Origin: a virus
Virus record (IMG/VR): IMGVR_UViG_3300008267_000023
Location: 19,218 to 83,217 of that record
Direction: 5' to 3' (one strand)
DNA length: 64,000 nucleotides
The notes under the pieces were generated by a model that saw only the letters and a program-made list of their open reading frames with translations, was not told the DNA's origin and ran no database searches. Positions 2,085 to 54,288 of this stretch are shown piece after piece. How positions within the stretch are numbered: the stretch's first letter is position 1; each line of letters opens with the position of its first letter. The position numbers and the translations under genes are program-made.

Positions 2085-4647
2085 AGGATCTTTATTAAAA
2101 TCAAACTATCTTGGAAAAGATGGATTTATTTGGTGGATAGGACAAGTTGCTCCAGCAAAAGTCTGGAGAGATGAGAAATCTTGGCCAGATGCTGGTAAAA
2201 ATAAAAAAGGAGAAAAGAGTGGTAGTTGGGCATATCGTTGTAAGGTAAGAATTATTGGGTATCATCCATTTGATAGAAATGTCCTTCCAGACAACGATTT
2301 GCCTTGGGCACACGTATTAACCACTGGAGCAGAAGGAGCAATTCAAGGAGGTGTTGGACAAACACTGAGATTGACTGGTGGGGAAACTGCCTTTGGTTTC
2401 TTCTTGGATGGTGATGATGGACAACAACCAGTAGTTGTCGGTTGTTTGCATAGAAATGAAAGTGTTGAAAATTTCCCATCAGAATCAATTGCCGATCAAC
2501 TAAGACCCTTTACTGGTCATACTGGACCATTGAGGCAAGGAGCAACGCAGATAAGAAAGCAAAATGATGGTGTTCAAGGTGAACCAAAAACATCAAACTC
2601 AATAACAGATATTGCTTTCTCTAAAGATATTGGTGATTTATCACAAACAACTAGAGAAGAAAATAAATCAGGAGCAGATCAATTTATCCGAGAAGATTAT
2701 GCATCTCAGCAATTTGCTGCAGAGGTTGGTGAAGTTTGTATTGTTAGAGAAAATGGATGTAATGATAATTTAATTGGGAAAATATCAAAAATATTACAAG
2801 AATTTATTCAATTTGTAGGAAGAATACAAGATTTTATTGGAACTTATATTGACCCAATATTAAACGAGTTTGTTGATATAGTTAATGAAATACGAGGATT
2901 TGCTAGAAGAATCGTTGGAGTTGTAAAATTCATAATCAATAATCTTCGTGGTTCAATCATTAAATTGGTAACAAACTTATTTCGTGATTTTATCGCAAAG
3001 GTTCTGCCACTACCACAACACCCACCAGTAGCAGAAGCAACGAAAAATATCATCAATATTATTTTCTGTTTATTTGAAAAATTAATTCCATTAATTATAG
3101 ATTATATTGTTAATCTTTTGACCAATATGATTGGTAAAATAATCAATGCACCATTGTGTGCTGTTGAAGAATTTACTGCAGCAATTCTTGGGAAGTTGAT
3201 GGAATTTATTGAAGACCTTCTTGGTCCAGTCATGTCTGGATTGAATTGGTTAATTGGTGGAATTGGAAAGATAAGTAATGTCTTGGGACAAATCTCATCT
3301 ATTGCACAACAGATTCTTAATTTTATTGGGTGCGATCAATTAAAATGCGAAACTGCCACTCAATGGTGTGCTGATGGTGGAGCATCTAAAAAAGGAAAAG
3401 ATAGTTGGTCTAGAACCCTTAAAAAGTTAAACTTTATGAAAGGAGTTAACCAAAGCATTGATGATGCTATTGGATCTACTTCATTGTTTGGATATACTGG
3501 ACCATCACCATTTAGAGACTGTTCACAAAGAGTAAATAATCCAACAAATCAAATAGACAAAACAAAACTTCCAACAGGAATGGTATACTCTTCATGTATA
3601 CCTCCGACACTTGAAATATTTGGAACAGGAATTAACGCACAAGCAATTCCTATTGTTGGAAATGATGGTAAAATATTGACTGTTGAAATATTAAATTCAG
3701 GAAAGGGTTACACAAAACCACCATCAATTAATGTAATTGATAATACAAATAATGGTTCGGGTGCCCAACTTGAAGCTAAAATTAGAAATGGAAGAATCGA
3801 GTCCATATATGTGGTAAATCCTGGATCTGGTTATTGTTTGCCAGATTATGCAAATACTTTTGTCTCCCCCACTTATTTTGTAACCGCAGATAAATACACA
3901 GTTTTTGAAGGTGAGACAATAAACTTTACAATAATAACTACAAATTTAGCAGATAATACTGAACTGAGTTACGATATTGGTGGAGATGTCACAATTGAAG
4001 ATTTGGAGATTGCTTCATTATCTAATAAAATAAAGATAGTTAATAATACAGCAACGTTATCTGTTAAAGTAAGGCAAGATAGTCAAACAGAACCTGTTGA
4101 AACTTTGATGTTTAATCTTTATGACCCAGATGATGATTTTGTCGCAAAGACAACTATTATAATTGGAAATAGACTTTCTCCGACACTTCCTCCAGCATTA
4201 AATCAACCAAATGAATCTCCACCAGGAACTCTAATTCCTGATGATTTAGGTGGAACTGCTGGTATTGGAACTACTTCATTACCAGGAAATCTAATTCCAT
4301 TCCCTGGAATATCTACCTTTACTGGTATTGGAACCAATGTTGTTGGTGTGATTACAAACTTTGCTATTCCCAATCCAGGGTTTGGATATACCTCTGGTGA
4401 TACTGTTAAATTTGAGAACTGTGTTTTTGGAGTAATTGTCACACCAACTGGAGCAATTGTTGGGTTGAATTCAATTAATTCGTGTAACAGCAACTTTACT
4501 ACAAATCCAGGACCAGCAGAAATTATTACTACTACAGGTGAAGGTGCGACAATATATCCAATAATACAATTCAAACCAACGTTCAATAAGATTACTGTTG
4601 TTAATCAATTTGGTGTTATTAATGTTATTGATTGTATCACTAAATAA
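2077..4647 (+). CDS. gp5: Baseplate hub/spike protein, gp5-like OB-fold, no lysozyme domain
   Basis: 856 residues. Residues ~15-130 match the OB-fold of T4 gp5: FIWWIGQVAP, RCKVRIIGYHPFDRN, LPWAHVL, GGVGQTLRLTGGETAFGFFL, QQPVVVGCLHRN. T4 gp5 then has a lysozyme domain and a C-terminal beta-helix. Here residues ~230-440 are instead a long amphipathic, hydrophobic helical region, followed by a GKGYTKPPSINV / GSGY module (~550-610), a Calx-beta-like segment (~620-700) and Gly/Pro/Thr-rich sequence. I see no lysozyme motif. The needle-like beta-helix is in the next gene. The protein should trimerise on the hub at the tail tip. Confidence 0.8.
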   Translation: MIEGSLLKSNYLGKDGFIWWIGQVAPAKVWRDEKSWPDAGKNKKGEKSGSWAYRCKVRIIGYHPFDRNVLPDNDLPWAHVLTTGAEGAIQGGVGQTLRLTGGETAFGFFLDGDDGQQPVVVGCLHRNESVENFPSESIADQLRPFTGHTGPLRQGATQIRKQNDGVQGEPKTSNSITDIAFSKDIGDLSQTTREENKSGADQFIREDYASQQFAAEVGEVCIVRENGCNDNLIGKISKILQEFIQFVGRIQDFIGTYIDPILNEFVDIVNEIRGFARRIVGVVKFIINNLRGSIIKLVTNLFRDFIAKVLPLPQHPPVAEATKNIINIIFCLFEKLIPLIIDYIVNLLTNMIGKIINAPLCAVEEFTAAILGKLMEFIEDLLGPVMSGLNWLIGGIGKISNVLGQISSIAQQILNFIGCDQLKCETATQWCADGGASKKGKDSWSRTLKKLNFMKGVNQSIDDAIGSTSLFGYTGPSPFRDCSQRVNNPTNQIDKTKLPTGMVYSSCIPPTLEIFGTGINAQAIPIVGNDGKILTVEILNSGKGYTKPPSINVIDNTNNGSGAQLEAKIRNGRIESIYVVNPGSGYCLPDYANTFVSPTYFVTADKYTVFEGETINFTIITTNLADNTELSYDIGGDVTIEDLEIASLSNKIKIVNNTATLSVKVRQDSQTEPVETLMFNLYDPDDDFVAKTTIIIGNRLSPTLPPALNQPNESPPGTLIPDDLGGTAGIGTTSLPGNLIPFPGISTFTGIGTNVVGVITNFAIPNPGFGYTSGDTVKFENCVFGVIVTPTGAIVGLNSINSCNSNFTTNPGPAEIITTTGEGATIYPIIQFKPTFNKITVVNQFGVINVIDCITK

Positions 4648-27292: not shown

Positions 27293-28402
27293 ATGAATTA
27301 TTATACTTATGCTTACTTGAGAGAAAATGGAACCCCTTACTATATTGGTAAGGGGAGTGGTGATAGGTGTTTTATTAAGGGAAAGAATGAAAGAATTAAT
27401 CCCCCAAAAGATAAGTCCAGAATAATATTACTTAAACAAAATTTAACTGAAGATGAAGCATTTAAACACGAAATTTATATGATTTCTATTCTTGGTAGAA
27501 AGGATTTGGGAACTGGTATTCTTCGCAATCTTACTAATGGTGGTGATGGTGTAAGTGGGTATGTTCCTAGTGAAAGTGTTAGGAAAGCAAGAAGAAGACA
27601 CGGAAAAGTAATTGGAAACCAGAACGCACAATTGAAAAGGGGAGTTTGTTCTCTTACGAAAGAACAAAGAGTAAAAAATGGAAATTATGTAAAAGAAAAC
27701 GGACTTGGAATATTTTCACAAACCCCAGAACAAAAAAGAGAAAATGGTAAAAAAGCAGGACAAAAAGCAAAAGAACTTGGACTTGGGGTATGTGGATTTG
27801 GATTTGAGGAAAGAAGTGCTGCTGGAAAAATAGGTGGTGCTAAAAATAGAGATAATAAAACTGGGATTTGTGGATTATCTTATGAAGAAAGGAGTGCTTG
27901 GGGGGATAAATGCAAAGAAGAAGGTATTGGAATATTCTCACCAGAATACTTAAAAGTTCGCAGTCAAATTTTAAGTGAAAGAAATTCTGGTGAAAATAAT
28001 CCTATGTATGGTAAAAAACATTCACCAGAAACAATTGAAAAAATTAGAAAAAAAGCACTAGAGAGAAAACCTAAAAAAATATACAAATTGAAAAATCCAA
28101 AGGGAGAAATAATTACTTTTGAAAATTTTGCAGAATTTTGCCATAAAAATAATTTAAATTCTGGGGGAGTTGCTAATGTTTTGCGGGGAAAATATATACA
28201 ACACAAGGGATGGACTTTACCAGAAACAATTTTAGAGAAAAAAATTTACACGATTAAAAGTCCAGAGGGAGTAATTTATACTTTTGATAATATAAAAGAA
28301 TTTTCAAAAGAGCATAATATTAAATGTGGTCTTGATGCAGTTTTGCGTGGTGTAAGAAAATCTTGTTATGGGTGGACAAAACCACCAGACGGGATATTAT
28401 AA
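27293..28402 (+). CDS. GIY-YIG homing endonuclease
   Basis: 369 residues. The N-terminal GIY-YIG nuclease domain shows YTYAYLRENGTPYYIGKGSG, an Arg near 25, and the catalytic Glu in EAFKHEIYMISILG (~60). NUMOD-type DNA-binding units follow: repeated GLGVCGFGFEERSAAGK-like segments, a NUMOD3-like GENNPMYGKKHSPETIEK (~235-255), and two C-terminal helix-turn-helix units ending HKGW and CYGW. Free-standing, with its own ATG, between the CobT-like and CobS-like genes. A selfish element that cuts uninserted copies of the neighbouring region. Confidence 0.9.
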   Translation: MNYYTYAYLRENGTPYYIGKGSGDRCFIKGKNERINPPKDKSRIILLKQNLTEDEAFKHEIYMISILGRKDLGTGILRNLTNGGDGVSGYVPSESVRKARRRHGKVIGNQNAQLKRGVCSLTKEQRVKNGNYVKENGLGIFSQTPEQKRENGKKAGQKAKELGLGVCGFGFEERSAAGKIGGAKNRDNKTGICGLSYEERSAWGDKCKEEGIGIFSPEYLKVRSQILSERNSGENNPMYGKKHSPETIEKIRKKALERKPKKIYKLKNPKGEIITFENFAEFCHKNNLNSGGVANVLRGKYIQHKGWTLPETILEKKIYTIKSPEGVIYTFDNIKEFSKEHNIKCGLDAVLRGVRKSCYGWTKPPDGIL

Positions 28403-50047: not shown

Positions 50048-50071
50048 CAGAACAAACCATAAAAGCAATCA

Positions 50072-50106
50072 AGAGGGAGAATCCAAAAGGTTCTCCCTCT
50101 TTTTTT
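50072..50106 (+). terminator. Rho-independent terminator
   Basis: AGAGGGAGAATCC, loop AAAA, GGTTCTCCCTCT with one bulged base, then seven T. It ends the short unit started at 49926. From here to 50209 I see no gene. Confidence 0.95.
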
Positions 50107-50209
50107 ATGCCTTGTGCCACTTGTTCAACTGGTCGTATCATTTGCCACTGGGGTCCAAACCCTGGTATATTACATGAGTCGGTGGGGGAACGAGACCCCA
50201 AACTGCCAA

Positions 50210-50266
50210 GTCCACTTTCGGAACTGGCACAACCCACTTGCCCCGCAACGGGTTCCGTGGTATTCT
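50210..50266 (+). promoter_or_regulatory. Boxed promoter of the main tRNA cluster
   Basis: ACTGGC (50223-50228), 32 bases, TATTCT (50261-50266); TTGCCC (50238-50243) sits 17 bases from the -10. Predicted start near 50273, 52 bases before the first tRNA of the cluster. Confidence 0.75.
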
Positions 50267-50324
50267 TAAGGAGTGGTTGAGAGACCACCAGCACCTTGAC
50301 AACTGAATAATTACCACATTATAT

Positions 50325-50593: not shown

Positions 50594-50758
50594 TTGTTAC
50601 ACTGCCGATGGAGTATCCCTCCTTGGTGGTTGTAGCACGTTATCCTGAATGTTGCCAGTTAGGTAAGGAATAACGTAGCGAGAAACTGGAAGAGGGGAGG
50701 AAGTGGAAGCCGTTGATTTTAAATCAACTTAGAGGTGCATTTGCTTCTTCCTCATCAA
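50594..50758 (+). other. Structured spacer with pseudoknot-like pairing
   Basis: 165 bases between tRNA-Asp and tRNA-Glu with no tRNA. Stem 1: 50637-50645 pairs with 50667-50676 (ACGTTATCC/GGAATAACGT, one bulge). Stem 2: CCAGTT (50655-50660) pairs with AACTGG (50684-50689). The order S1-S2-S1'-S2' is an H-type pseudoknot. A long stem-loop follows (50699-50751) with a tRNA-like 7-base loop at its tip (GTTGA-TTTTAAA-TCAAC) but no D or T arm. Either a remnant of a tRNA plus spacer, or a small RNA. Confidence 0.45.
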
Positions 50759-50831
50759 GGTCCTATCGTCTAGAGGCCAAGGACATCACTCTTTCACAGT
50801 GAAGACACGGGTTCAAATCCCGTTAGGACTA
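50759..50831 (+). tRNA. tRNA-Glu(TTC)
   Basis: Acceptor GGTCCTA/TAGGACT, discriminator A, anticodon stem TCACT/AGTGA with loop CTTTCAC, T arm ACGGGTTCAAATCCCGT. Confidence 0.95.
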
Positions 50832-50835
50832 CCTT

Positions 50836-50909
50836 GGGAACATAGCTCCAACTGGTAGAGCACAGGGCTGAAGACCTTGGTGTTGTCGGTTCAAATCCGA
50901 CTGTTCCCA
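50836..50909 (+). tRNA. tRNA-Phe(GAA)
   Basis: Acceptor GGGAACA/TGTTCCC, discriminator A, anticodon loop CTGAAGA, T arm GTCGGTTCAAATCCGAC. Confidence 0.95.
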
Positions 50910-50910
50910 C

Positions 50911-51048
50911 TTGGGTTGTTGCCCGATATGAAAAACACTTCTAGTTACTTTAGCGGGTAACAATAGTTGTGAAAAATCGGAATTACCCCTGCCCGTTCTC
51001 TTCGGGATGCGAATTGGGGAAAGGCAAAGGGAAGAGACAACAACCCAT
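50911..51048 (+). ncRNA. Candidate structured RNA between tRNA-Phe and tRNA-Ile
   Basis: A perfect 10-bp closing helix pairs 50912-50921 (TGGGTTGTTG) with 51038-51047 (CAACAACCCA). Inside: CCGAT (50923-50927)/ATCGG (50976-50980), enclosing CTA-GTTAC (50941-50948)/GTAAC-aa-TAG (50957-50966); then CCCC (50986-50989)/GGGG (51016-51019), enclosing CCCG (50992-50995)/CGGG (51003-51006). The result is a closed multi-branch fold with no coding frame or tRNA. No match to an RNA family I know. Confidence 0.55.
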
Positions 51049-51051
51049 ATT

Positions 51052-51123
51052 GGAACCGTAGCTCAGTGGTAGAGCACTCGGCTGATAACCGAGCGGTCAC
51101 AAGTTCAAATCTTGTCGGTTCCA
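51052..51123 (+). tRNA. tRNA-Ile(GAT)
   Basis: Acceptor GGAACCG/CGGTTCC, discriminator A, anticodon stem CTCGG/CCGAG with loop CTGATAA, T arm CAAGTTCAAATCTTG. Confidence 0.95.
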
Positions 51124-53540: not shown

Positions 53541-53981
53541 ATGGAACTTCAAACGATTGGGTCAAAGGTTTTAAGAGAAAAAGCAAAAAGAGTAGCAAAT
53601 ATTGATGATACCATAAGGTATCTTTGTTTTAATATGGCAAAGACCATGAGAGAGAAAAATGGTATTGGTATTGCTGCTCCTCAAGTTGGTGTAAGTAAAA
53701 GAATTATAATTGTTGATAATAAAGGAAAAGACTGGATTTTAATCAATCCAGAAATAGTATGGAAAAGTGATACCCTTGTTAATTTTGAAGAAGGATGTCT
53801 AAGTGTTCCTGGTGTTTTTGATAATGTGAAAAGACCAGAATCAATAAAGATTAAATATAGAAACGCAAAGGGAAAACCAATCTTCGAAAAAGTAGATGGT
53901 TTATTGTCGAGAATTGTTCAACATGAGATTGACCATTTAGATGGAGTTTTATTTGTTGACTATTTGAAAGAAAAAGAGTAA
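53541..53981 (+). CDS. def: Peptide deformylase
   Basis: 146 residues. All three family motifs are present: GIGIAAPQVG (41-50), EEGCLSVPG (83-91) with the metal Cys, and QHEIDHLDG (127-135) with the metal His pair and catalytic Glu. It removes the formyl group from new proteins. Phage deformylases are known in marine cyanophages and are thought to help mature photosystem proteins such as D1. Here it stands between the tRNAs and the tmRNA. The C-terminus is short, as in phage forms. Confidence 0.95.
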   Translation: MELQTIGSKVLREKAKRVANIDDTIRYLCFNMAKTMREKNGIGIAAPQVGVSKRIIIVDNKGKDWILINPEIVWKSDTLVNFEEGCLSVPGVFDNVKRPESIKIKYRNAKGKPIFEKVDGLLSRIVQHEIDHLDGVLFVDYLKEKE

Positions 53982-53984
53982 TAT

Positions 53985-54049
53985 ATAAAGTGTTCAAGAG
54001 GATGGGAATTCTGATGTTTCGGACTGGGGTTCGATTCCCCACATCTCCA
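53985..54049 (+). ncRNA. ssrA: tmRNA acceptor piece (permuted, two-piece)
   Basis: TTTCGGACTGGGGTTCGATT holds the T arm, as in tmRNA; CATCTCC (54042-54048) is the 3' acceptor strand and A54049 the discriminator. CATCTCC pairs with GGGGATG at 54056-54062 downstream, giving a G3-U70 Ala pair. TCAA (53994-53997) and GATGGG (54001-54006) pair with TTGA and CTTATC of the coding piece (helix P2). The 3' half lies upstream of the 5' half, the permuted order known from alpha-cyanobacteria. CCA is not encoded; the left end is approximate. Confidence 0.85.
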
Positions 54050-54055
54050 TTTCAG

Positions 54056-54228
54056 GGGGATGTACTGGTTTCGACGGGGCATAAAGGTCTTATCTGTTGA
54101 CGGGACAAACAAACAAACAAACGCAGCGAATAAAATCGTCAAGTTCACTCGTCAGTCTGCACCTGTTGCAGTTTGACTCTAAATGAGTGGAGGGGGTTAT
54201 AAGTTTCCTTCTTACCCAAAACTTACAT
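54056..54228 (+). ncRNA. ssrA: tmRNA coding piece (permuted, two-piece)
   Basis: Starts GGGGATGTACTGGTTTCGAC, the tmRNA 5' signature (acceptor strand plus D-loop). P2 strands CTTATC (54089-54094) and TTGA (54097-54100) follow. The tag frame starts at GCA 54123 or GCG 54126: (A)ANKIVKFTRQSAPVAV, stop TGA 54174-54176. A pseudoknot follows: GGGT (54194-54197)/ACCC (54214-54217) with AAGTTT (54201-54206)/AAACTT (54219-54224). Only 6 bases separate the two pieces. With SmpB it frees stalled ribosomes and tags the products. The final residue is Val where Ala is usual. Confidence 0.9.
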
Positions 54229-54250
54229 AGGGGTGCAATGCCCCTTTTAT
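54229..54250 (+). terminator. Terminator after the tmRNA
   Basis: AGGGG, 7-base loop, CCCCT, then TTTATTTTA. Confidence 0.7.
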
Positions 54251-54252
54251 TT

Positions 54253-54260
54253 TATAAATA
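54253..54260 (+). promoter_or_regulatory. Late promoter TATAAATA
   Basis: Full late consensus right after the tmRNA terminator, 29 bases before the ATG at 54289. Confidence 0.65.
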
Positions 54261-54288
54261 CTCAAGAATTATTCATTTTAGAAAGTTC

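Follow-up and report, generated by a model that had tools for sequence, protein, structure and literature searches.

A covariation-supported RNA family, new to Rfam, among the tRNA genes of apparent cyanophages

The spacer between two tRNA genes of a viral tRNA array contains a structured RNA unit of about 136 nt, here named element A, which belongs to a genuine RNA family supported by covariation and new to Rfam. The homologous family, its compensated helices, its strand, its position flush with tRNAs, the change of its neighbours and the existence of one stand-alone copy are shown below. The reading that we favour, with a probability of about 0.66, is that element A is an autonomous, small and probably trans-acting phage RNA; its expression, its processing, its pseudoknot and its action in trans are inferred. 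The phages that carry it probably infect cyanobacteria.

The window, that is the whole stretch of DNA analysed, represents 64 kb of an IMG/VR virus record of 83,217 bases and contains 25 tRNA genes together with a tmRNA of the permuted type. The closest named-phage DNA to the two structured spacers of the window was found in the Synechococcus phages S-CBWM1 and S-CREM1, and we have inferred from this proximity that the window derives from a cyanophage. The tRNA-Phe gene (end at 50910) is separated by 140 bases from the tRNA-Ile gene (start at 51051), and many neighbouring tRNAs of the array are spaced by 1-3 nt. The features discussed in the text are the following:

50257-50276, + strand: promoter-like motif GTGGTATTCTTAAGG ahead of the tRNA array (promoter function inferred)
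50836-50910, + strand: flanking tRNA-Phe (gaa), upstream of element A
50911-51048, + strand: element A, the whole structured unit, between tRNA-Phe and tRNA-Ile
50912-50921, + strand: 5' strand of the closing helix P1
50922-50926, + strand: conserved CCCGA, with alternative partners that remain undecided (TCGG 50977-50980, forming P2, or CCC with GGG 51029-51031)
50936-50971, + strand: variable arm P2b, closed by CAC...GTG, variable in sequence and size
50986-50989, + strand: 5' strand of P3, CCCC
50992-50995, + strand: 5' strand of P4, CCCG
50998-51002, + strand: loop strand CUCUU of the inferred pseudoknot, invariant in 21/21 sequences (pairing without covariation)
51003-51006, + strand: 3' strand of P4, CGGG, pairing with 50992-50995
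51016-51019, + strand: 3' strand of P3, GGGG, pairing with 50986-50989
51032-51036, + strand: downstream strand AAGAG of the inferred pseudoknot, following the conserved AAAGGNAAAGG and invariant in 21/21 sequences
51038-51047, + strand: 3' strand of P1
51051-51124, + strand: flanking tRNA-Ile (gat), downstream of element A

Other features of the window were observed. The tmRNA (53960-54267) is a permuted, phage-borne tmRNA of the cyanobacterial type that adjoins a peptide deformylase-like gene (gene name judged by eye), and positions 27293-28402 contain a likely homing endonuclease with a NUMOD3 motif. The tRNA-Lys gene is preceded by a leader (50100-50323) for which some relatives show 82-94% conservation along most of its extent and which is shorter or broken in others. 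Promoter-like motifs are present inside this leader at 50142-50171 and at 50257, and a strong terminator-like hairpin (50071-50101) is localized just before it.

A preliminary description of the window, made without database searches, had claimed that a perfect helix of 10 bp closes a 138-base segment between two tRNAs otherwise tightly spaced. Both points held, the helix being P1 (50912-50921 with 51038-51047). A perfect inverted repeat of at least 10 bp was obtained in 41/5000 dinucleotide shuffles of the segment. The folding energy of the 138-mer is -45 kcal/mol (z -3.15), a value that none of 200 shuffles equalled. The claim of two internal multi-stem arms held in part, since the arms of the thermodynamic fold overlap only partially with the conserved arms of the comparative model. 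The conserved fold is composed of P1, the variable arm and a two-part hairpin P3/P4 whose CUCUU loop is able to pair with the downstream AAGAG. The absence of a coding frame, also claimed, was confirmed: no shared reading frame was found, at most 7 of the 21 distinct homologues being free of stops in any frame of either strand. The length of the homologues is comprised between 132 and 161 nt in the 21 distinct sequences and between 127 and 162 nt over 32 copies.

Covariation was analysed from an alignment of 21 distinct rows obtained with MAFFT without use of the structure, from which were left out the identical copies, the loci L175 and L240 (one contig present as two halves) and the truncated L231. 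The covariance model R1 was built with the arm pairs two positions off; the pair counts given here use the corrected structure and R1 itself was left uncorrected. Standard pairs represent 97.0% of the 630 pair cells. Changes on both sides were observed in 15 of the 30 pairs (shuffle mean 4.5; reached by 0/500 shuffles) and in 33 cells (shuffle mean 6.0). For covariation, the alignment scores 0.223, compared with 0.107 for shuffled alignments and 0.031-0.062 with slid partners, and none of 500 shuffles reached this value. The number of independent events is lower than the number of double-change cells, because most of the rows belong to one related group of phages. In the ranking of all 8541 column pairs, a P4 pair is at the top and the pairs of the model represent 4 of the top 30; the other pairs of the top 30 are for the most part located in the poorly aligned arm or explained by relatedness.

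Considering the helices one by one, P1 displays double changes in 8 of its 10 pairs, distributed across its two blocks (92.9 and 96.0% of cells paired), and its sequence ranges from TTAGCC/GGCTAA in S-CBWM1 to an unrelated helix of 22 bp in L174. P3 is paired in 98.8% of cells, with the variants CCCC/GGGG, CTAC/GTAG, CCTC/GAGG, TCCT/AGGA and CCCT/GGGG and one mismatched row (CCGC/GGGG), and P4 is paired in 100% of cells, with the variants CCCG/CGGG, CCCC/GGGG, CCAC/GTGG and CCCT/GGGG. These three helices were recovered by RNAalifold without aid. P2 (CCGA/TCGG) is paired in 94.0% of cells with no double change, and its CCC/GGG alternative is the one favoured by RNAalifold. The closing pairs of the variable arm are paired in 96.8% of cells, and arms of differing length and sequence fold as hairpins; that of L136 is very weak and that of L174 was not extracted. 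The + strand displays 19 G-U cells versus 6 A-C cells (corresponding to G-U on the opposite strand), an excess that fits a transcription of element A in the direction of the tRNAs.

The pseudoknot has a different status. The strands CUCUU and AAGAG are complementary and unvarying in the 21 rows, and hence give no covariation signal. One search pattern had fixed the 3' side of the pseudoknot, another the 5' side and a third neither; even with the third, no CUCUU/AAGAG variant was found. Because neither strand ever varies, the base pairing remains unproven and the pseudoknot is only inferred.

An alternative explanation would be that element A is a chance fold or debris derived from tRNAs in an array spacer. 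In its favour, structured spacers and broken tRNAs are numerous in arrays, and pseudoknot-free folding is near the level of shuffles in several members (z of +0.39 for S-CBWM1, +0.10 for L169, -0.06 for L164 and -0.44 for L136). This explanation is contradicted by the compensatory changes in P1, P3 and P4, and by the retention of element A in a phage without a T4-type capsid gene, so that we regard it as practically ruled out. According to the preliminary description, the segment may be a new small phage RNA with a structure, to be checked by covariation in related phages and by an Rfam search. The covariation check was passed and, with Rfam 15, no family was found on element A at the gathering score nor at an E-value below 0.1, and nothing convincing at permissive thresholds. 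Down to an E-value of 5, the matches in 50595-51055 concern only the two neighbouring tRNA genes and none lies in the segment. The proposal is thus supported, the production of a stable RNA being inferred.

Pattern scans of IMG/VR and of the phage collection yielded 33 complete copies of element A and one truncated copy (S-CBWM1 counted once, the window included, and L175/L240 counted as one, with the whole copy in record G034). BLAST against 50,697 phage records detected only S-CBWM1 (two accessions), with 85% identity over 67 bases, and two divergent members used as queries again detected S-CBWM1 alone. In this phage, the copy is localized in the tRNA-Gly/tRNA-Asn spacer, where nothing is annotated. 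Patterns defined from the aligned core recovered 29 IMG/VR stretches, and the full element was recognized by eye in all except L175, which begins inside element A and whose contig has the remainder of the copy in L240. Four more stretches, namely L230, L236, L238 and L231 (truncated), came from the pattern that had fixed the 5' side of the pseudoknot. The model R1 matches the window at 50911-51049 with 150.1 bits, by construction, since the window is one row of the model. Applied to the window and to 72 loci, mostly related arrays (73 sources in total), R1 detected element A only in the window and in L144. On 43 whole records, it gave one clear match apiece in 14, and noise-level matches only in two more.

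Several candidates were rejected. The R1 matches at E-values of 0.02-0.99 in relatives were treated as noise, the pattern CCCGTTNNNNNNCGGGATGNGAA gave 12 chance matches in viral contigs (L147-L158) that were discarded, and the additional stretches obtained with GGATGNGAANNNNNNNAAGGNAAAGG (L196-L226) contain no true member according to R1. No convincing element A was found in 84,980 bacterial and archaeal genomes by exact-pattern scans, which are narrower than a model search. One of these scans was empty and the other gave 36 stretches from scattered bacteria and an archaeon. These were judged to be chance matches, R1 recognizing mostly only the 26-38 patterned positions (best E-value 0.0045), and the same conclusion was reached for one full-length R1 match (E-value 0.17). 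A gene of the Gp23 capsid family is absent from the whole S-CBWM1 record and present in G034. As both carry element A, the family occurs in at least two phage lineages. No description of element A was found in the open-access literature searched, subscription journals and preprints being mostly outside its coverage.

P1 starts at -5 to +2 nt from the end of the upstream tRNA in 30 of the 32 copies scanned, the downstream tRNA starts 1-4 nt past P1 in 29, and the tRNAs are on the strand of element A in all 32. The neighbours are Phe/Ile (20 copies), Asp/Glu (4 copies), Glu/Ile (2 copies), Asp/Ile (2 copies), Gly/Asn (1 copy) and Lys/Leu (1 copy), to which are added two special cases. The L174 copy follows a tRNA-Lys, has its next tRNA 1.8 kb further on, and has kept the core beside its 22-bp P1 of unrelated sequence. 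The L238 copy is localized between protein genes, at 6.6 kb from the only tRNA of the locus; its core is kept and its P1 is lengthened by GTGGAGGG/CCCTCCAC.

The L238 copy lies directly behind GTGGTATTATTAAAGGGTGG, a promoter-like repeat with three copies on this locus, and a close form of the window motif at 50257-50276 precedes the stand-alone element A. The GTGGTATTNTTAA part of this repeat also stands before tRNA arrays and, in the form GTGGTATTCTTAA, the repeat precedes tRNA-Lys in many arrays including that of the window. On the - strand of L238, the promoter-like GCCACTTGTTCTAGTGGCACAC...GTGGTATTATTAAAGGGTGG is seen at 4370-4440 and 1990-2060, one of the three locus copies being before the stand-alone element, and a part of it is also present in an intergenic region of S-SKS1. 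A simple sigma-70 scan gave no sigma-70 match at the L238 repeat. It is possible that the L238 copy is the remnant of an eroded tRNA array.

The tight placement raises the possibility of a cis-acting element, which would aid or insulate the processing of its two neighbouring tRNAs and would be without function once excised. The short distance to the next tRNA in 29/32 copies and the constant tRNA strand are in favour of this reading. Against it, the flanking tRNA pairs change between phages, and the core is kept in L238, far from any tRNA, and in L174, with a tRNA on one side only. Moreover, tRNA-Phe and tRNA-Ile are adjacent in 21 of the 72 loci scanned, with a gap of 1-3 nt in 9, element A in 1 and different inserts in 11 (several of them closed by a helix). 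Because 9 of these 21 junctions hold just 1-3 nt and only one holds element A, the element is not essential to the related group of phages. We consider the cis-acting reading unlikely: the changing neighbours, the many relatives lacking element A at the junction and the stand-alone copy make a separate RNA more likely than a processing aid, this being an inference.

The inserts of the Phe/Ile spacers are diverse. In L088, L089 and L107, a different helix-closed insert of 162-164 nt occupies the slot held here by element A, and still other inserts are found in L141/L145 and in L085-L087/L137. In S-CREM1 (L134, 3301-3397), the spacer of 95 bases contains two T-arm-like hairpins that are apparently tRNA remains.

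A selfish or passenger element, spreading from slot to slot by recombination at similar tRNA ends and kept only by its mobility, was also considered. The different slots used in different phages and the alternative structured inserts in the same Phe/Ile slot of relatives would agree with it, as would L231 (6288-6413, - strand), where a truncated element A continues into a tRNA-Glu of which only the 3' half remains, apparently by a deletion between the two. On the other hand, each of the 14 records that gave a clear match contains a single clear copy, the loops are conserved besides the stems, which suggests a function beyond movement, and no protein or target-site mark was seen. We therefore judge this explanation improbable.

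Element A can be compared with several known RNAs. The phage T4 RNAs RNAC (rnaC, species 1 RNA, 139 nt) and RNAD (rnaD, species 2 RNA, 119 nt) are tRNA-region RNAs without known role (PMC3014915, PMC9697503), and a recurrent mutation has been reported in the rnaD region of a T4-related phage (PMC12685909). Like them, element A is a small RNA gene that lies within or beside the clustered tRNAs of a phage. Unlike them, it shows no sequence similarity: it scores 12 against rnaC and 13 against rnaD, versus shuffle means of 15.5 and 14.7 (996/1000 and 852/1000 shuffles as good), and R1 has no match on the T4 stretch examined (L185). In contrast to element A, the T4 RNAs sit past the last tRNA, and RNAC ends in a hairpin resembling a tRNA T-arm (by eye). 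GOLLD, a structured RNA of unknown function in phage-derived tRNA clusters, exceeds 400 nt and can enclose a tRNA gene (PMC6582537). Element A shares the location in a phage tRNA cluster; however, with 127-162 nt, no enclosed tRNA and no match in the Rfam library, it is not GOLLD, whose far larger size the preliminary description had mentioned. Conserved structured RNAs are also known from cyanophages, namely manA, wcaG, PhotoRC-II and glnA, described as cis-regulatory near protein genes (PMC2864571, PMC9964418), whereas element A, conserved and structured like them, has tRNAs as neighbours and matches no Rfam family. The S-CREM1 paper lists abiF, wcaG, manA and glnA RNAs (PMC9964418), none of which falls in the S-CREM1 tRNA stretch examined according to the coordinates of its Table 4.

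The array of the window includes a second structured spacer, element B (50595-50758, between tRNA-Asp and tRNA-Glu; z -3.75). Its core has homologues in S-CREM1 and in 10 IMG/VR stretches, and its loop can also pair downstream. Both elements are structured spacers of the same array; their sequences differ, with only GAATTGGGGA-like stretches in common (28-45/1000 shuffles as good). The S-CREM1 copy of element B weakly resembles T4 rnaD (3/1000 shuffles as good), the corresponding values being 118-135/1000 for the copies of the window and of L146. Element B displays too few changes for its covariation to be judged.

The RNAs of type III toxin-antitoxin systems are also pseudoknots. An RNA mimic or antitoxin directed against an RNA-dependent host defence, similar to such systems, could be evoked from the small inferred pseudoknot, the phage-borne character and the exchangeable slot of element A. 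This reading appears highly doubtful, as element A has no match to an Rfam antitoxin RNA, no tandem copies were found and no toxin has been identified, a toxin neighbour not having been sought.

In the reading that we prefer, that of an autonomous RNA, element A would in most phages belong to the transcript of the tRNA array. It would be released as a separate RNA, about 130-160 nt long, by cleavage at the tRNAs on either side, through 3'-end processing of the upstream tRNA and cutting by RNase P where the downstream tRNA begins, as RNAC and RNAD of T4 may be released. Because element A is flush with the tRNAs, it could be freed without any promoter or terminator specific to it, and the ends of the released RNA would be locked and guarded by P1. 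In the core, the CUCUU loop of the P3/P4 hairpin would pair with AAGAG, giving a pseudoknot of the H type whose linker is rich in purines. This core is the most constrained part of the element and therefore the likely binding surface. The RNA would act in trans, its target being a component of the host or of the phage rather than the neighbouring tRNAs. Among the possible classes of role, we infer that binding of a protein or blocking of a nuclease, as a decoy, is the most likely, the target being unidentified.

A bolder reading can be proposed, which we consider possible but less likely than not. The tRNA arrays of these cyanophages would at the same time be sets of small RNA genes that can be exchanged, with junctions of the Phe/Ile type serving as slots for unrelated helix-closed RNAs (element A, the insert of 162-164 nt and others). 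The processing of tRNAs would provide their production without promoters, and each would have a target in the host on which it acts in trans, for instance by serving as decoy for a nuclease involved in defence. If this were true, element A would be the first slot RNA with a covariation-supported fold.

Element A represents a second family, unrelated to RNAC and RNAD of T4, in the same genomic setting and with a sharply conserved core. Its copy in the cultured phage S-CBWM1, which grows on Synechococcus CBW1002, opens the question of the function of tRNA-region RNAs to testing in another system. The spacers of phage tRNA arrays, usually ignored, can harbour conserved RNA genes that are missing from Rfam.
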